Assembly: GCF_900182815.1 (NCBI RefSeq)
Contig: NZ_FXUA01000002.1
Location: 62,001 to 126,000 of the forward strand
Direction: 5' to 3'
Source: Algoriphagus winogradskyi
GTDB lineage: Bacteria > Bacteroidota > Bacteroidia > Cytophagales > Cyclobacteriaceae
DNA: 64,000 bases
Below, one piece after another: positions 6,664-58,722 of the stretch; within the stretch, counting starts at the first letter, position 1; each line of letters starts with the position of its first letter. The notes below the pieces were generated by a model. That model was not told where the DNA came from, ran no database searches, and was given only the letters and a program-made list of their open reading frames with translations. The position numbers and the translations under genes were made by a program.

Positions 6664-7131
6664 ATGGCAGGAGTAAATAAAGTAATCTTAGTGGGTAATC
6701 TTGGGTCAGATCCAGAAGTTAAATATTTGGAAGGTGACAATGCAGTAGCAAATCTTAGCATTGCAACTACCGAAGCTTACAAAAATCGAAATGGCGAACG
6801 TGTAGAGCAAACGGAATGGCACGACCTGGAAATGTGGGGAGCTCAGGCAAAAATCGCTGAGCAATACCTCAAAAAAGGCAGTCAGATCTATGTGGAAGGC
6901 AAACTCAAAACTGACAAATGGCAAGATGAGCAAGGTCAAAATCGCTACCGTACTAAAATCAGAGTGTTAAGCTTCACTATGCTCGGAGCCAAGCCAGATG
7001 GTGCCATGGGAGGAAACACTAATGCTCCACAGCAATCAAATCAACAAAGACCGGCATCTGCAGCTCCTACTTCTGCACCAAAAGCACAAGAAATGGTCTC
7101 AGATACGGAAGATGATGATCTACCATTTTAA
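6664..7131 (+). CDS. ssb: Single-stranded DNA-binding protein
   Basis: Coats single-stranded DNA in replication, recombination and repair, and recruits partners through its acidic tail. The 155-residue protein has the OB fold in residues 1-105 (MAGVNKVILVGNLGSDPEV; EWHDLEMWG; YVEGKLKTDKW), a Gln/Pro/Ala-rich linker, and the canonical acidic tip ending DDDLPF. Length and tail are normal for bacterial SSB. It follows mutY by 47 bases and is closed by a terminator hairpin before gldE, so mutY-ssb may form one unit. The mutY-ssb-gldE order is typical of Bacteroidota. Confidence 0.98.
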   Translation: MAGVNKVILVGNLGSDPEVKYLEGDNAVANLSIATTEAYKNRNGERVEQTEWHDLEMWGAQAKIAEQYLKKGSQIYVEGKLKTDKWQDEQGQNRYRTKIRVLSFTMLGAKPDGAMGGNTNAPQQSNQQRPASAAPTSAPKAQEMVSDTEDDDLPF

Positions 7132-7137
7132 TAATCT

Positions 7138-7172
7138 ATTCCTCTGGAAGCTATTTTCAGGGGAATTTTTTA
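7138..7172 (+). terminator. Intrinsic terminator of ssb
   Basis: Nine-base stem ATTCCTCTG / CAGGGGAAT with one G-T wobble and an 11-base loop, followed by TTTTTTAATTTT. It begins six bases after the ssb stop and separates ssb from gldE. Confidence 0.7.
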
Positions 7173-7178
7173 ATTTTG
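7171..7178 (+). promoter_or_regulatory. Candidate -7 element for gldE
   Basis: The sequence TAATTTTG fits the Bacteroidota -7 consensus TAnnTTTG and sits 24 bases before the gldE ATG, directly after the ssb terminator. No convincing -33 TTG is seen (the ssb terminator occupies that place), so this is tentative. Confidence 0.3.
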
Positions 7179-7201
7179 CATTAACCATTGCGGTTTAATA
7201 C

Positions 7202-8551
7202 ATGGACGATCCCTACCCGAGTTACCATTTACTCGCTCAGATTAGCTCACCTTCGGTAAGTTATTTGATTCTAAATGGATTGCTTTTTATACTACTATTA
7301 ATAGGCTCTGCCCTGGTTTCTGGTTCAGAGGTAGCATTTTTTTCCCTAACCAATGAAGATCTAGGCAATATCGACGAGGATAATACGCCTCGCGGTAAAA
7401 AAGTGATAAACTTAGTAGAGTCGCCTAAAAACCTGCTCAGCACTATTCTGATCCTCAATAATCTAATTAACATTGGGATAGTGACATTAACTACATTTGT
7501 GGCATGGTCCATCTTTGGGCAAAATGCCACAGGAATTATCATCATCCTTGTCCAAACGGTTGGAGTAACTTTCGCAATCGTGTTTTTTGGGGAAATAGTA
7601 CCGAAAGTATATGCGAATAAAGCCAAGGTCGAATTTAGCCTAATCATGGCTCCAAGTATCAGTTTTTTCTCTACAATACTTCGACCTTTTTCTAAGTTCT
7701 TGATGGCCTTTAGTAATTTACTCGAAAAGAGGATTGAAAAAAAGGGCTATTCCCTCTCGGTAAATGAACTGAATCAGGCCTTGGAATTGACAACTGAGGA
7801 CGCTCCAAATGAAGAACGAGAGATACTACGAGGAATCGTAAACTTTGGTACGCTTACAGTAAAGCAGGTGATGCAAAGCCGCATGGACATCACGGCAGTA
7901 GATATGGAAATGGATTTCCATGAACTGATGGACAAAATCAATAAAAGTGGCTATTCTAGAATCCCGGTTTACGAAGAAACTATTGACAATATTCAAGGCA
8001 TACTCTACATAAAGGACCTACTTCCATACATTGAAAAAGACGAAGATTTTGCATGGAATGAATTAATCCGAAAGAGTTTCTTCGTACCGGAAAATAAGAA
8101 AGTAGATACACTTTTAAAGGATTTTCAATTGAAGCGAGTCCACATGGCTATTGTTGTGGATGAGTATGGAGGAACGTCTGGTTTGGTCACATTGGAAGAT
8201 TTGATAGAAGAAATTATTGGGGAAATCAATGATGAATTTGATGACCATGATGATATCTTCTTTCAGGAAATTGATCCTTCTACCTTCATTTTTGAAGGAA
8301 AGGTATCTCTCAATGATTTTTGTAAAAAACTGGAATTAGACGGACAGATTTTCGAAGAGGTAAAAGGTGAAAGCGAATCACTTGGAGGCTTGCTTTTAGA
8401 GTTGAATTCCAAATTGCCAAAGAATGGCACAAAGATCAAGTTTGAGGATTTTGAATTTACCATCCTTGCAGTAGATTCACGGAAAATCAAAAAAGTAAAG
8501 GTTCACATTAATTCTTTAGACAAGGATTCATTAGGGCCTTATACTGATTGA
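7202..8551 (+). CDS. gldE: Gliding motility-associated protein GldE (CNNM/CorC type)
   Basis: Inner-membrane protein of the hemolysin/CNNM-CorC family; in Bacteroidota the copy next to mutY and ssb is GldE, linked to gliding through its partner GldD. The 449 residues show the order expected: DUF21 membrane domain with about four helices in residues 20-180 (GSEVAFFSLTNEDL signature), a CBS pair around 210-335 (VMQSRMDITAVD; LKRVHMAIVVDEYGGTSGLVTLEDLIEEIIGEI), and the CorC_HlyC transporter-associated domain near 350-440. The usual neighbour gldD does not follow: the next gene is gltB. The gldE name therefore rests on the upstream context; a general metal-transport role remains possible. Confidence 0.82.
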   Translation: MDDPYPSYHLLAQISSPSVSYLILNGLLFILLLIGSALVSGSEVAFFSLTNEDLGNIDEDNTPRGKKVINLVESPKNLLSTILILNNLINIGIVTLTTFVAWSIFGQNATGIIIILVQTVGVTFAIVFFGEIVPKVYANKAKVEFSLIMAPSISFFSTILRPFSKFLMAFSNLLEKRIEKKGYSLSVNELNQALELTTEDAPNEEREILRGIVNFGTLTVKQVMQSRMDITAVDMEMDFHELMDKINKSGYSRIPVYEETIDNIQGILYIKDLLPYIEKDEDFAWNELIRKSFFVPENKKVDTLLKDFQLKRVHMAIVVDEYGGTSGLVTLEDLIEEIIGEINDEFDDHDDIFFQEIDPSTFIFEGKVSLNDFCKKLELDGQIFEEVKGESESLGGLLLELNSKLPKNGTKIKFEDFEFTILAVDSRKIKKVKVHINSLDKDSLGPYTD

Positions 8552-8944
8552 AAAGCAGCCAATTACAATATTGGTAATTATTCAATGAATTCAGAATAAT
8601 ATTCTTCAACTGAATCATTAAACAACGAATCGACGAATTCGAAAGAAAATACACGGAAAATAATTTTATTTTTTTTAAGATTAATTTTGGGTACCCCAAA
8701 ACTAAAATCATGACATACTTTTTTCTGGAAAAGTGTCAAAAAACACCCTATCTATTCAAATACCGCTATAAAATTTACAGCTACGTTCAATTTTTTACAC
8801 CAAAAAGGTAATTGCCAAAATTTTAATAAAGTTAAAATCCATAAGTAATAAGGCACTAAAGCACCCGTTTTATTGCCGTAATTTTAATAGGACATTTTTT
8901 TTTTGTAATTTTTGGAAATTTTGAACCTAATAAATTCTATAAAA
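8552..8944. other. AT-rich intergenic region upstream of gltBD
   Basis: 393 bases without a gene, strongly A/T-rich. It probably holds the gltB promoter and control region. One TAATTTTG box (8682-8689) fits the -7 consensus but lies far from the gltB start. I see no riboswitch, RNA gene, strong inverted repeat or credible short reading frame. Confidence 0.5.
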
Positions 8945-11900
8945 ATGCAAGAAGGTTTGTATCGATCGGAGTTTGAGCATGACTCCTGCGGTATAGGTGC
9001 AGTTGTCGATTTGAGCGCAGTACCCTCACATGAGACAATTAGCGATGCCTTATACATGCTGAGCAACATGGAGCACCGTGGTGGAAGAGGGGCTGATCCC
9101 AAATCTGGCGATGGTGCTGGCATATTAATTCAGGTACCACATCAGTTCCTTAAGGATATCACTGCACGTACAGAAATCGAGCTTCCAGAAGCTGGATCTT
9201 ATGGCGTGGGCATGACGTTTTTCCCAAAGAATAAGCAACTATTCCACAAGTCAAAAGAACTACTTAATCAACTGATTGATGAGTTGGGTTTTGAGTTAAT
9301 CGGATATAGATCTGTGCCGGTGGACGAAACCGTACCAGGTTCCGGAGCATTAGAAGTGATGCCTAATATAGAGCAACTTTTTGTCAAGCATAAAAAGGGA
9401 CTCACAGGAATTGAATTGGAGCGCAAGCTTTATGTGCTTAGAAACTATTCCACTTCTGAAATCAACACTAAGATTCCAGGAGTAAACCAGTCCTTCTATT
9501 TTGCGAGTTTGAGCAGTCAGACACTTATATATAAGGGACAACTTCGGACTGATCAGGTATTGGCTTTTTACAAAGACTTACAAAACCCGAGAATAGGCTC
9601 TGCATTTGCAATTGTACACTCACGATTCTCTACCAATACTTTTCCAAACTGGAGATTGGCACAGCCATTCCGATTCCTTTCTCACAATGGTGAGATCAAT
9701 ACGATCAAAGGGAATCTGAATAAGATGAAGTCTAAGGAAAACCTCATGAAATCTAAGTTTTTCACTGATGAGGAGCTTTCTCGCTTGATGCCTATTACTG
9801 ATAAGCAGAAGTCTGATTCAGCGAATCTTGACGCGATGGTAGAACTTCTCACGTTGAGTGGTAGATCCCTTCCTCATGCTATGATGATGCTTGTGCCAGA
9901 AGCTTGGCAGGATAATGAAGTGATGGATCGGGACAGAAAATCATTCTATAAATTCCATGCTTCACTTGTTGAGCCATGGGATGGTCCAGCTGCTTTGCTC
10001 TTTACAGATGGAAAATCTGTTGGTGCTACGCTTGACAGAAATGGCCTGCGTCCACTTAGATACTTTATTACTAAAGATCAAAGACTGATTCTTTCTTCCG
10101 AGGCAGGAGCATTGCCTATTCGGGAAGCTACAATATTAGAAAAAGGCAGAATCAGTCCAGGTAGAATGATTTGGGCTGATTTGGAAAAAGGCCGAGTGGT
10201 ATTTGATGAGGAAGTAAAAGGTGAAATCTGCAGAAAACAGCCTTATGAGCAGTGGGTAGCAGACCAGCGAATCAAACTTCGTCTGGAGGATGCCCCAAAA
10301 ACGCTGACTCATCCATATTCTACCGAGAACATTAAAAAGCACCAAACTATATTTGGATACACTTCTGAGGAACTCAAAGTAGTCTTGAGCCCAATGGGAG
10401 ATACTGCCTATGAAGCAATTGGCTCAATGGGAGCGGATACTCCATTAGCTGTTCTATCCAAAGAAAGTCAGCATATTTCCAATTACTTCAAGCAGCTATT
10501 TGCGCAGGTAAGTAATCCTCCGATCGATCCGATTCGTGAGCGTTTGGTAATGTCTTTGTTCACCCGATTGGGCGTAGGACAGAATATTTTGGAAGAAAGT
10601 CCTAAGCACACGCGTCAAATCCATATTTCCCAGCCAGTACTGCTAAATGAAGACCTGGAAAAAATTCAGAATATGGAAGGGCAAGGCTATAGATGTGCTA
10701 CTCTTTCCAGTCATTTCCTAGCAGATCACCAGCCAGGAAGGCTTTTGGAAGCGCTTGACAAGCTATGTGATGAGGCTGAAAAAGCAATTAGTGAAGGAAA
10801 AAATGTCATCATTATTTCTGACAGAAATAGTACTAAAGAATATGCACCAATCCCATCTCTATTGGCGATCGGGGCAGTTCACCATCATCTTGTCAAAAAG
10901 AAAATAAGAACTAGCGCCGGCTTGGTGCTGGAATCTGGAGATATCCGCGAAACACATCATTTCGCAACTGCAATTGGATACGGTGCTTCTGCCATCAATC
11001 CATACATGGCATTGGAATCTCTTTTGGATATGTTTGAAAAAGGTGAATTGCCTAATGCAAAAAACCAGAAGAAATTATTCTCAAATTATCAAGCGGCGAT
11101 AGGAAAAGGACTACTCAAAGTGCTTTCCAAAATGGGAATCAGTACGCTTCAGTCTTACCAAAGTGCACAGATTTTCGAAGCAGTAGGACTTGGACCAGAA
11201 GTTATTGATAGATGTTTTAAAGGAACCATTTCCAGAATCTCAGGTATAGCCTTTGACGAATTGGCTGAAGAAGTCTTGATTCGTCACAGGGCTGCTTATG
11301 AGACAGACTCTCCTATTCTAGAGCAAGGAGGCGTGTATCAGTGGAAAAGAAGGGGTGAAAAACACTTATTCAATCCTGAAACAATCCACCTACTTCAGAA
11401 ATCTACCCGATTGAATGATTTTGCTTTGTATAAGAAATTTGCAGCCAAAATCAATGAGCAAAGTAAAGATGCTTTGACCTTAAGGGGCTTATTTGAATTC
11501 AAAAAACGAATCTCTGTACCAATTGACGAAGTAGAGCCGGCATCTTCCATTATGAGAAGGTTTGCCACTGGTGCGATGTCATTTGGATCTATTTCTCACG
11601 AAGCACACTCTACTTTGGCGATAGCCATGAACAGGATAGGCGCCAAGAGTAACTCTGGAGAAGGCGGAGAAGACGAAATTCGATTTGCCAAAAAAGAAAA
11701 TGGAGACTGGGAACGCTCAGCGATTAAGCAAGTAGCCTCCGGTAGATTCGGCGTAACTAGTAATTACCTAACAAATGCCGCCGAGCTCCAAATTAAAATG
11801 GCACAAGGAGCAAAACCTGGTGAAGGTGGTCAGCTTCCAGGACATAAAGTAGATGATTGGATCGGTAGAGTAAGACACTCCACGCCTGGCGTAGGTTTGA

Positions 11901-55689: not shown

Positions 55690-55956
55690 ATGGATTTAAT
55701 AGTACCTGGAGATGGGCAACTCATTTGGCAAATTTCATTCCTATTCTCTGTACTCTTCCTAGGTTTTTGGGCTTATGCGCTATTTGATGCGCTAGGAGCG
55801 GAATTTAGGGCGGCTCATAGCAAACTCATGTGGGTGGTGACTATAATACTTGCGCCAGTCATCGGCACATTTTTATATCTCGCAATGGCCAGAAGCCAGA
55901 GAAAAGAACGGCGTAGATTTAAGCCTACATTTTCAAAATCCCCTAATTCAAACTAA
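55690..55956 (+). CDS. PLDc_N-like small membrane protein, first of a tandem trio
   Basis: An 88-residue protein of two membrane helices with the PLDc_N-type (phospholipase D nuclease N-terminal) hallmark: a helix ending in ALFDALGAEF, a short polar stretch (RAAHSKLMW) and a second helix with APVIGTFLYLAMARSQRKERR. Its tail is very basic. The next two genes have the same arrangement. Such small proteins occur in immunity-like and sigma-factor-like settings, but no function is established. It is 94 bases from the divergent M14 gene. Confidence 0.78.
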   Translation: MDLIVPGDGQLIWQISFLFSVLFLGFWAYALFDALGAEFRAAHSKLMWVVTIILAPVIGTFLYLAMARSQRKERRRFKPTFSKSPNSN

Positions 55957-56190
55957 ATGACACTTTCTTTTATTCAAAACATGGGCGGAGGCTCCATTAT
56001 AGTTGTACTGCTGTTTGGTCTTATCTATGGCATATTATGGATTTACTGTCTGGTAGATATCCTTCGCTCGGAATTCAAAGATCCCAATATGAAAATAATC
56101 TGGATCGTAGTTATTCTATTTGCCCAGCTTATCGGTCCACTTGTTTACTTGGCGATGGGGAAAAGCACTAAAATAACAAATTACTCTTGA
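55957..56190 (+). CDS. PLDc_N-like small membrane protein, second of a tandem trio
   Basis: A 77-residue protein with the same pattern: first helix followed by CLVDILRSEFKDPNMKIIWIVV, second helix with AQLIGPLVYLAMGKS. The ATG follows the upstream stop without a gap. Note the shared 'D-x-L-x-S-E-F ... P-N-x-K-x-I-W-I-V' core with both neighbours. It ends in a short polar tail (TKITNYS). Confidence 0.78.
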   Translation: MTLSFIQNMGGGSIIVVLLFGLIYGILWIYCLVDILRSEFKDPNMKIIWIVVILFAQLIGPLVYLAMGKSTKITNYS

Positions 56191-56191
56191 T

Positions 56192-56365
56192 ATGTTTGGA
56201 CTAGGTGCTATTGGGTTAATAATTTATGCAATTACCATTTTTGATGTGGTGAGCAGTAAGTTCGCAAACCCAAACGACAAACTCATTTGGATTATTATCG
56301 TAGTACTAGTACCACTTTTAGGAGCCATTCTTTGGTTCTTGATCGGTAGAGGGGAAAGGATTTGA
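56192..56365 (+). CDS. PLDc_N-like small membrane protein, third of a tandem trio (57 aa)
   Basis: A very short reading frame, beginning one base after the previous stop, that translates to a 57-residue PLDc_N core: a first helix ending in TIFDVVSSKFANPNDK, followed by LIWIIIVVLVPLLGAILWFL and a short basic end (IGRGERI). The alignment with the two genes before it (VSSKFANPNDKLIWII versus RSEFKDPNMKIIWIVV) shows that this is a real gene despite its size. It is easy to miss. A three-helix protein gene follows after 44 bases. Confidence 0.8.
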   Translation: MFGLGAIGLIIYAITIFDVVSSKFANPNDKLIWIIIVVLVPLLGAILWFLIGRGERI

Positions 56366-56409: not shown

Positions 56410-56691
56410 ATGAGAAGTCTTTTTTTATACTACAAGCAAATCAGCAGTTTCAACATTCCTTTTTCATTACTTATCGCTTTCCTAGCCTACATAAACGGTG
56501 GCAGTTTTGATGTTTTCTTTTTTCTCCCACTTTTGACAATTGGTTACTTACTCGCTCTATATTTATTTGAAGTAAGGTATGCGCATCAGTATTTCTTCTA
56601 TTTCAATTTAGGGCATGAAAAGTTAAAATTGATTGGCTTTACTTTCGGGGTAAATGCAGCCATTGCCCTCACCTATTTCCTTATTTTTTAA
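56410..56691 (+). CDS. Three-helix membrane protein upstream of the ABC-MutS fusion
   Basis: A 93-residue protein with three hydrophobic segments (about residues 15-30, 34-52 and 74-92) separated by short polar turns, one with EVRYAHQYFFYFNLGHEKLK. I recognise no family. Its stop lies six bases from the ATG of the ABC-MutS fusion, which implies co-translation. It might be the membrane partner of that ATPase, but it has only three helices, well short of a classical ABC permease. This is a guess from position. Confidence 0.7.
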   Translation: MRSLFLYYKQISSFNIPFSLLIAFLAYINGGSFDVFFFLPLLTIGYLLALYLFEVRYAHQYFFYFNLGHEKLKLIGFTFGVNAAIALTYFLIF

Positions 56692-56697
56692 TTGCCT

Positions 56698-58722
56698 ATG
56701 ACTCATCACATCTTAGAAGTAGATAGTCTAATCAAGTCATTTGGCCATAAACATTTACTTACTGATATCTATCTTAAATGCTCCACAGGAGAAGTAATTG
56801 GAATTTTAGGTAGAAATGGAACAGGCAAATCCACTTTACTTCAGATAATTTTTGGGTCAACTGATGCAGAAAGTAAAAGCATTAGGATAAACGGTAAATT
56901 CCTGGAAAAAGCATTTTCAGATGGAGATAAAATAGCCTATCTACCTCAAGGCAATTTCTTGCCAAATGGCTTATCTGTTTCCTCGGTCATTCGAACATAC
57001 TTTGATGAAGAAAACAGTAGAAATTCAGTTATTGCTAATACTCGAATAAAGCCGATTCTACATAAAAAGATCTCTGCACTTTCTGGAGGTGAAAAACGAT
57101 ACCTTCAATTACTGCTGATTCTCAATCTTCCAACAGCATTTGCCTTGCTTGACGAACCTTTTTCCCAAGTAGAACCACTCTACAGAGCGGACATCAAAGC
57201 ACTCATTGATATACATAAGAAAGAAAAAGGCATCATCATTACTGATCACGATTACCTGAATCTGATGGATGTTAGCGACAAAACCTTCCTGCTTACGGGA
57301 GGAGCGCTGAAGCCAATATTGGAAACAAAACAACTCATCGAATACAATTACCTTCCTCCTGAGAAATCCGAAAAAGAGGCAGAAGCTGATGATAAGAATT
57401 TTCTTATTGACAAGCAGACATCGAAAGATCTGGGTCTAGCTATCAATTACGATGAGGAAAGTTTACTTTCTCTTTTTGAAAAGCCTGCATCCAAAGGTGG
57501 AAAAGCTTACTTGGAAAAGTTGTTTGACAACCCAACGAGAAGCAAAATCCTCCTTCAAAATAGACAGGAATCTATAAAATTCTTTCAGCAAAATGATGGC
57601 CTACTGAGGCTTGACAGAAAGCAACTTGATTTTATTACTGTCTACTTGGAGTCTGGCATAGCAGTGAATTCTTCCCAATACAGTTCGCTGTCAATCTATC
57701 TGAAAAACAAGTATCGCACCTCAAACAATTTTTACATCCAGGAAACAGGGATGCAACATGTGTTTGAATTTTTGAAAGAAGCATTACAACTGGCTACTAA
57801 AATCCAAGACCTGAACCCTAATTGGTATCTATCCAATCTTGCTTATCAGATTCAAGAACAAATCAACAGCAGCAATTTGCGGGACTTTATGGATTCCTAT
57901 GGCCAAAAACCGCTTTACCTCCATTTTTCAGAGTTTGATTTTATGTTGAGAAGTAAGGGAAAGGAACAGCTCCTTTGGTTACTCGAACGCTTTTATGAAT
58001 TTGATGCATACAACGCAGTAGCTCAGACAAGTAAAAAATTAAAATTCGCTTTTCCTGAATTTGAGAAAACTCAGAGTTCTCTAATAGAAATTGAAGGGTT
58101 GTTTCACCCAAAGCTGGCTAATGCTGTTGGTAATGATTTCACTATTTCAGCTAAAGAAAATATGTGTTTTCTCACTGGAGCAAACATGTCAGGTAAATCT
58201 ACTTTCCTAAAGGCCTTCGGCTTGGCTATTTATCTTGCTCATTTGGGATTCCCTGTTCCTGCTGTCAAAATGAAAACGAGTATTTTCGACGGGCTTTTCA
58301 CTACGATCAATCTCTCTGATAATATTAATCATGGACTAAGTCATTTTTATAGTGAAGTAAAACGAGTAAAAGAAGTAACGCGTGAGATCAAAAATGATAA
58401 AAATCTAGTCGTCATTTTCGATGAGCTATTTCGTGGCACCAATGTAAATGATGCCTCCACTGCTTCTTCTATGATAATTTCTGCTATCGCCCAGCAGCCT
58501 GGAAGTGTCTACATTATTTCTTCGCACATCATGGAGATTGCCCAGGAATTGGAAAAACAAAAGAACATTTTCTTCAAGTGCTTTGATGTGAGAGTAGTCA
58601 ATGACGAAGCCATTTATACTTACAAGCTTGTAGATGGAGTTTCCAAAGACAGCCTGGGACTACACCTTGTTATCAAAGAGCAAATCTTAGAATTACTTCA
58701 AGAAAAAAAAGCTACTTCCTAA
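56698..58722 (+). CDS. Fused ABC-transporter-type ATPase and MutS-like ATPase
   Basis: A single 674-residue frame with two ATP-binding domains. Residues 1-~215 form an ABC transporter NBD: Walker A GRNGTGKST at 38-46, signature LSGGE at 128-132, Walker B ending D152-E153 (LLDEP), and a D-loop/H-loop (TDHD). Residues ~225-480 resemble the MutS core/lever region (KPASKGGKAYLEKLFDNPTRSKI, then a Rq-rich helical part). Residues ~485-674 form MutS domain V: Walker A TGANMSGKST at 493-502, Walker B with D575-E576 (FDELFRGTN) and SSHIMEIAQEL. There is no N-terminal mismatch-recognition domain, so repair of mismatches is unlikely. The three-helix gene precedes it. Known to me only as separate proteins elsewhere; rare as a fusion. 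Confidence 0.87.
   Translation: MTHHILEVDSLIKSFGHKHLLTDIYLKCSTGEVIGILGRNGTGKSTLLQIIFGSTDAESKSIRINGKFLEKAFSDGDKIAYLPQGNFLPNGLSVSSVIRTYFDEENSRNSVIANTRIKPILHKKISALSGGEKRYLQLLLILNLPTAFALLDEPFSQVEPLYRADIKALIDIHKKEKGIIITDHDYLNLMDVSDKTFLLTGGALKPILETKQLIEYNYLPPEKSEKEAEADDKNFLIDKQTSKDLGLAINYDEESLLSLFEKPASKGGKAYLEKLFDNPTRSKILLQNRQESIKFFQQNDGLLRLDRKQLDFITVYLESGIAVNSSQYSSLSIYLKNKYRTSNNFYIQETGMQHVFEFLKEALQLATKIQDLNPNWYLSNLAYQIQEQINSSNLRDFMDSYGQKPLYLHFSEFDFMLRSKGKEQLLWLLERFYEFDAYNAVAQTSKKLKFAFPEFEKTQSSLIEIEGLFHPKLANAVGNDFTISAKENMCFLTGANMSGKSTFLKAFGLAIYLAHLGFPVPAVKMKTSIFDGLFTTINLSDNINHGLSHFYSEVKRVKEVTREIKNDKNLVVIFDELFRGTNVNDASTASSMIISAIAQQPGSVYIISSHIMEIAQELEKQKNIFFKCFDVRVVNDEAIYTYKLVDGVSKDSLGLHLVIKEQILELLQEKKATS

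Follow-up and report, generated by a model that had tools for sequence, protein, structure and literature searches.

Introduction

Domain V of MutS and the nucleotide-binding domains (NBDs) of ABC proteins are both ATPases of the ABC superfamily. MutS proteins are classed with DNA repair, NBDs mostly with transport. MutS2 is reported to split stalled ribosomes, to which it is recruited through its SMR and KOW parts (PMC10897456). Here, we describe a bacterial gene in which an ABC NBD and a MutS-type ATPase are encoded in one reading frame, directly behind a gene for a small membrane protein. The parts are of known kinds. Their combination, either as an ABC-MutS fusion or as an ABC-MutS-MutS operon, was not recognized in the titles and beginnings of abstracts that made up the literature searched, and the ABC-MutS pairing may stand unnoticed in databases.

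Domain Organization of the Fusion Gene

The gene is located at positions 56698–58722 on the plus strand of the window, by which we mean the whole stretch of 64,000 nucleotides that was analyzed. It is a single uninterrupted frame of 674 amino acids when read from the ATG at 56698; an in-frame TTG at 56692 is an alternative start. Residues 1–222 (56698–57363, plus strand) form the ABC NBD. This domain matched PF00005 with an E value of 1.2e-25 (91 bits, cut-off 25) and contains a Walker A motif at residue 38, the signature LSGGE at 128 and, within LLDEP at 150, the Walker B motif with its catalytic glutamate (all numbered from the ATG). A variable charged linker (residues 223–234, 57364–57399) leads to a MutS domain III-like core with lever helices (residues 235–460, 57400–58077) and to a MutS domain V ATPase (residues 461–674, 58078–58719), all on the plus strand. 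Domain V matched PF00488 with an E value of 4e-31 (109 bits, cut-off 30). Its Walker A motif TGANMSGKS is located at residue 493, followed by VIFDE at 572 and RGTN at 579. An earlier note, made from the sequence alone, had claimed the union of an ABC NBD and a MutS-type ATPase in this frame. Both Pfam matches, together with the motifs at the very positions it had named, confirm this claim.

The match of the core to PF05192 (MutS_III) had an E value of 0.0014 and remained below the family cut-off. The same family was found at E ≤ 0.01 in all 26 MutS-bearing rows of a 40-row Pfam scan, and its cut-off was exceeded in the stand-alone MutS relative L036. With the domain III core fold and domain V present, the C-terminal half is a member of the MutS family ATPases. 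The AlphaFold2 model of the whole chain had a mean pLDDT of 89.3, with values below 50 at linker residues 227–230. Over a 17-residue stretch the linker region shared 53% identity with each of three congeners, compared with 71–86% for the NBD. A search for promoters and terminators gave no excess over shuffled sequence.

The Upstream Membrane Protein and the NBD Half

A frame for a hydrophobic protein of 93 residues (56410–56691, plus strand), passed over in the earlier note, stops 6 bases upstream of the ATG of the fusion. Homologues of this protein, three-helix membrane proteins of about 95 residues, are encoded upstream of all eight fusions that we found. In the fusion genome G618 a longer false start overlaps the true frame, and the homologue was identified there by inspection of the reading frames. 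Thirty loci were inspected for a hydrophobic frame of 60–137 residues at the start of the NBD gene. Such a frame was present in 24 of them, i.e. at all four fused NBDs and at 20 of the 26 that are unfused, one of the latter (L100) being an incomplete locus. The frame was not seen at six of the 30 loci (L098, L104, L108, L114, L117 and L118); L098 is located at the end of a contig, and an over-long NBD call could hide the frame at four of the other five.

The model of the membrane protein (pLDDT 95.1) shows three long helices, with a short one (residues 60–66) between the second and the third. In 28 aligned rows N66 and G68 were near-invariant and L74 was invariant; these residues lie within or after the short helix. 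Judged by its position and by analogy with ABC exporters, this helix seems to be placed like a coupling helix. The protein matched no NCBIfam model and no Pfam family below an E value of 0.1. A Foldseek search returned no PDB chain at E ≤ 10, which does not show that the fold is new. Since a structural match was missing, the role as transporter domain is argued from gene order, predicted helices and the conserved motif; on this basis the 93-residue protein is probably the partner of the NBD.

Three small membrane proteins of the PLDc_N family (PF13396) are encoded in tandem on the plus strand (55690–55956, 55957–56190 and 56192–56365), immediately before the gene for the 93-residue protein. 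PLDc_N proteins occur beside ABC genes elsewhere, an example being YxlE of B. subtilis, and we take this as a lead only. Two congeners carry a PIN-domain gene directly before the membrane protein gene (L035, 4305–4676, plus strand; L228, 6338–6709, minus strand), in the place that the PLDc_N frames occupy in the window.

By sequence, the nearest solved relatives of the NBD half are LptB proteins, with a best E value of 1.3e-22. An assignment as LptB was rejected with 111.2 bits against the TIGR04406 cut-off of 240, and so was GldA (TIGR03522, 73 bits versus 402.6). The NBD was detected at E ≤ 1e-25 in 76 of 390 sampled genomes of the order, mostly unfused. Within the order, the small membrane protein and an unfused NBD commonly make up a unit of two genes.

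Occurrence, Join Point and History of the Fusion

The window's family was sampled with 390 genomes; eight of them, from four genera, contain the fusion, always with the same join point. The window's own genome (G000), G017, G673 and G650 belong to one genus, and G618, G446, G335 and G352 to three others. The MutS half was present at E ≤ 1e-40 in 23 of these 390 genomes and fused to the NBD in 8 of the 23. The order sample, also of 390 genomes, contained four fusions, every one from the window's family. In the phylum, 296 genomes were searched with a MutS-half relative as query (E ≤ 1e-50); of the 13 matches, the window's own was the only one in a frame of fusion length. None of the best 80 of 580 confirmed named loci had NBD and MutS in one frame.

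Two sister species, G285 and G402, share synteny with the window at this locus, including the opposite-strand gene that follows. Membrane protein and NBD are kept there, and the NBD gene ends at the equivalent of fusion residue 222. Unfused NBDs elsewhere mostly end 1–8 residues, and at most 14, beyond the common profile. The join sits at the native C-terminus of the NBD. No MutS half was found at the locus of the two sister species; G285 gave no MutS-half match at E ≤ 1e-30 in the order search, and G402 was absent among the matches listed in the order-wide search.

Trees were built on chosen rows (68 MutS rows and 45 NBD rows, with smaller trees of 20 NBD rows and 25 rows). In the 45-row NBD tree the unfused NBD of G402 grouped with the fused one of G650 (99/89) and the unfused NBD of G285 with those of G017, G673 and G000 (98/84); the placement of G446 and of the G335/G352 pair was not settled. 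The 20-row tree united the fused NBDs and the two unfused sister NBDs in one group with 86/88 support, not starred, and a clade of fused NBDs that excludes these two was rejected (AU p 2.6e-61). Because both unfused NBDs are nested among fused ones, two losses of the MutS half would be the simplest account, with repeated gains or gene conversion as alternatives. The smaller MutS tree placed the fused MutS halves and the unfused one of G442 in a clade at 98/96; the eight fused halves as a clade without G442 gave p 0.09. These trees fit a putative history in which the fusion arose once, the MutS half was later lost twice and the NBD was lost once (in G442).

Relatives of the MutS Half and a Second Link to ABC Proteins

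Relatives of the MutS half in named genomes come mainly from Bacteroidota, as judged from the best 80 of 580 confirmed loci, which are not a random draw and of which 23 are incomplete. Fifty-eight of these 80 loci have a MutS frame of 420–500 residues, eight one of 570–660 residues and 14 neither. At 16 of the 80, a GldF/GldG-like permease is encoded on the same strand as MutS. Fourteen of the 16 belong to the 420–500-residue class, where 44 of 58 loci are without a GldFG-like permease, and L193 and L198 complete the number. No permease and no NBD-family match was found at any of the eight loci of the 570–660-residue class.

The full order GldA-like NBD, permease, MutS, MutS was observed at 11 of the 16 permease loci among the best 80 (L137, L139, L142, L146, L147, L148, L149, L151, L158, L175 and L193). 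There, an NBD of 305–333 residues precedes a permease of 764–800 residues on the same strand. At L138, L144, L145 and L152 the NBD is not visible as a whole because the locus begins 136–393 bases before the permease. Thirteen of the 16 permease loci have two separate small MutS genes, and for L145 one MutS gene only is listed. The two are fused in L193 (3533–6184) of Pedobacter sp. ok626, where a frame of 883 residues next to the ABC permease contains two small MutS domains. In L198, from Niabella defluvii, the operon of permease and two MutS genes is split up into many short frames, the sign of either a pseudogene or sequencing errors. The same NBD-permease-MutS-MutS layout occurs in G530 of the window's family. 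NCBIfam models matched the L142 operon below their cut-offs throughout (GldA-like, 275 bits; GldF-like, 95.5 bits; a weak GldG-like match, 20 bits), and the Pfam families ABC2_membrane_2 and ABC_transp_aux were matched above cut-off. Genes for a TolC-like and a membrane-fusion protein lie downstream in L144.

All tandem MutS genes in the 68-row MutS tree form one clade, and the MutS-pair operon may therefore be a single event. Three operon NBDs were included in the NBD tree, where they are remote from the family of the fused one. The statement in the earlier note that the two occur as separate neighboring genes is partly true: ABC and small MutS genes adjoin in the Bacteroidota operon, but the NBD there is this distant GldA-like one. 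With the fusion and the operon, one MutS-like family met the ABC machinery at least twice, in two distant ABC families, and it is this repeated meeting from which we argue for a role at a transporter. It is conceivable, and put forward with reserve, that Bacteroidota possess a class of transporter-coupled MutS ATPases, in which a MutS core without its DNA-reading parts would act as a second ATP motor of ABC membrane machines. They would occur either as paired subunits beside GldA/GldFG-like proteins or, in one family, fused to the NBD of a minimal system with the three-helix protein of about 95 residues as its membrane part.

Several other arrangements were noted. L132, a Bacteroidales MAG, encodes membrane protein, NBD, a 205-residue frame and MutS consecutively. 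At seven loci of one genus (L072, L075, L076, L077, L080, L083 and L084) the small MutS gene adjoins a tandem pair of paralogues of about 415–475 residues and one further gene. In L072 the paralogue pair had no Pfam match, and the further gene encodes a seryl-tRNA synthetase. The same locus (6808–9296, G162) has an NBD and a membrane protein of about 100 residues head to head with the small MutS gene, an arrangement missing in six relatives of G162 that share the surroundings. In L178, on a contig labelled Comamonas and perhaps mis-binned, the small MutS gene adjoins a gene that clusters with the Mg-chelatase-like neighbor in Chitinophaga L162.

Co-occurrence of the two halves in the order sample was determined with a MutS-half cut of E ≤ 1e-37, which left 30 of 37 genomes; six of the seven excluded ones had frames of about 590–630 residues, and G100 had one of 423. 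The NBD was present in 15 of the 30 MutS-half genomes versus 61 of the 360 others (Fisher p 8e-5, kinship ignored) and, after removal of the four fused genomes, in 11 of 26 (p 0.003, kinship ignored). Conversely, 61 of the 76 NBD-carrying genomes had no MutS half at that cut, and of the 15 family genomes in which the MutS half is unfused, only two carried the fused-type NBD at E ≤ 1e-25. Since each half usually exists without the other and most small-MutS loci have no permease, the partnership of NBD and MutS seems to be optional.

These numbers bear on the strongest competing explanation, by which an NBD was joined by chance to a neighboring MutS gene and the halves work separately on one chain. 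Either half can indeed be lost, the MutS half twice inside the genus and the NBD once in G442, and most relatives examined have one half only. However, the fused form persists across four genera with intact motifs, and a distant ABC family shares an operon with the same MutS family. We consider a fusion by chance rather unlikely.

Fold of the MutS Half

Fusion residues of approximately 230–667 superpose on residues of approximately 262–785 of E. coli MutS, and the best E. coli entries reached Z scores of 35–36. The 50 entries listed, structures of the MutS family, gave Z scores of 29–37.5 over 302–414 residues. A profile of 15 MutS halves matched chains of MutS, MSH and MutS2. As the superposition covers only this part of E. 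coli MutS, domains I and II are absent; its start near residue 260 bears out the absence of domain I claimed in the earlier note. The clamp domain IV (PF05190) was absent among the Pfam matches listed (25 of 26 families, 40 rows). In the model, about 50 residues, nearly all of them helical, separate the long helices 343–371 and 422–448; the clamp domain of MutS is larger than that and rich in strands. That domains I and II are missing and no clamp-domain match was listed argues against mismatch reading. A mismatch repair protein of the MutS1 type was rejected with 143.7 bits against a cut-off of 480 and 116.3 against 641.7 in NCBIfam, and the N-terminus is an ABC NBD. The earlier judgment that mismatch repair is unlikely is thus upheld.

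Alternatively, the MutS module could act on ribosomes like MutS2, or reactivate a protein in the manner of a chaperone, next to the membrane. MutS2 cores superpose on the MutS half at Z scores of 30–36.5, the top entry being an integrative model, and the reported splitting of stalled ribosomes by MutS2 provides a precedent (PMC10897456). The score for the reactivase KamC (NF052383, 121.4 bits) is near those of the MutS models. Against this stand a KamC cut-off of 300, an NCBIfam score for MutS2 of 97.4 bits versus a cut-off of 400, and the absence of SMR, one of the recruiting parts named for MutS2 in that study, among the Pfam matches listed (25 of 26 families). Both assignments were rejected, and we regard this explanation as improbable. 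The window's genome has a separate MutS_V gene of 798 residues, which is taken for MutS2 by its size, and a further MutS_V protein of about 600 residues (L004, G000:C5:168466-168942).

Still less probable is a membrane tether for DNA, with the MutS module binding DNA and the ABC part serving as anchor. The MutS fold, evident by sequence and structure, speaks for it. The lack of domains I and II, of PF05190 among the matches listed and of anything beyond a short helical stretch at the clamp position speaks against it, and the coupling of membrane events to DNA that had been considered possible before found no positive support. Anti-phage defence was rejected as well: PADLOC gave partial ATPase matches only, the best to mad3 with 69.5 bits, and the PHROGs matches of the fusion, to general ABC and unknown families, gave no defence lead.

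Conservation of the Two ATPases

The ATPase motifs were intact in all eight fused NBDs, in all seven fused MutS halves from other genomes and, in a separate scan, in the window's own MutS half. Among 34 unfused NBDs, 25 showed all four patterns, eight had no signature pattern and one no Walker A pattern. All three patterns were found in 53 of 57 non-fused MutS halves, Walker A being missing in three and S[ST]H in one. By their motifs, both ATPases of the fusion look competent. The dN/dS values of G000 versus G017 and G673 were 0.08–0.09 for the NBD, 0.10–0.12 for the MutS core and 0.03–0.04 for MutS_V; they are rough because synonymous change is high (0.84–1.57, and not computable versus G650).

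An assembly artefact or a decaying gene is practically out of the question given eight genomes, a single join point and low dN/dS. Nothing was found in its favor, although one in-frame TTG, at codon 208, might in theory serve as a start of its own for the MutS half. The seven further genomes with the fusion also dispose of the sequencing error joining two adjacent genes that the earlier note had raised against itself. No methionine occurs between residues 190 and 352 of the fusion, and no support was found for a MutS half made from codon 208.

Proposed Mechanism

Our preferred, and still tentative, reading is that the fusion protein assists a small ABC-type membrane machine, as its accessory ATPase or gate, and does not serve mismatch repair. 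In such a machine the ATPase would carry a MutS-derived ATPase on its C-terminus. The membrane part would be formed by two or more copies of the 93-residue protein, and the loop between its helices 2 and 3 might dock on the NBD in the fashion of a coupling helix. Two fusion chains could pair via their NBDs and so bring two MutS modules together beneath. A MutS dimer without mismatch-reading domains might then act as a second ATP-driven clamp or lever, which would gate the NBDs or handle a cytosolic ligand of the transporter. Domain anatomy, gene order and conservation are what the data show; the physical assembly, the direction of transport, the accessory position of the MutS module and anything on the substrate are inferred.

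The conserved fusion and the operon link to a distant ABC family offer a testable case of a MutS motor outside nucleic acids. Sister species, some of which have the MutS half while others do not, provide a natural, ready-made comparison. Annotators should be warned that a small "MutS" gene in Bacteroidota may encode part of a transporter and not a repair protein.

Comparison with Known Systems

The fusion resembles the MutS1 core (PF05192 and PF00488) in its fold from domain III onward and in its MutS-type Walker motifs. In contrast to MutS1, which has domains I and II, it remains far below the equivalog cut-offs and is joined to an ABC NBD. MutS2 likewise has a core without a mismatch-binding domain, which superposes at Z scores of 30–36.5; unlike MutS2, the fusion had no SMR match among the matches listed and reached 97 of the 400 bits. 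KamC, the lysine 5,6-aminomutase reactivase ATPase, is a MutS-like ATPase for which the model name gives a non-DNA role. The fusion scored 121 bits with this model, whose cut-off is 300. On the ABC side, LptB-type NBDs are the nearest solved relatives of the fused NBD by sequence, but the score was 111 versus 240 bits, and the fusion is preceded by a 93-residue membrane protein and not by LptF/G. The GldA-GldF/GldG-like operon contains MutS genes related to the fused half, and both belong to a single part of the tree that is well supported. Its NBD, however, is distant, its MutS genes are separate and paired, and its permease has 764–800 residues.
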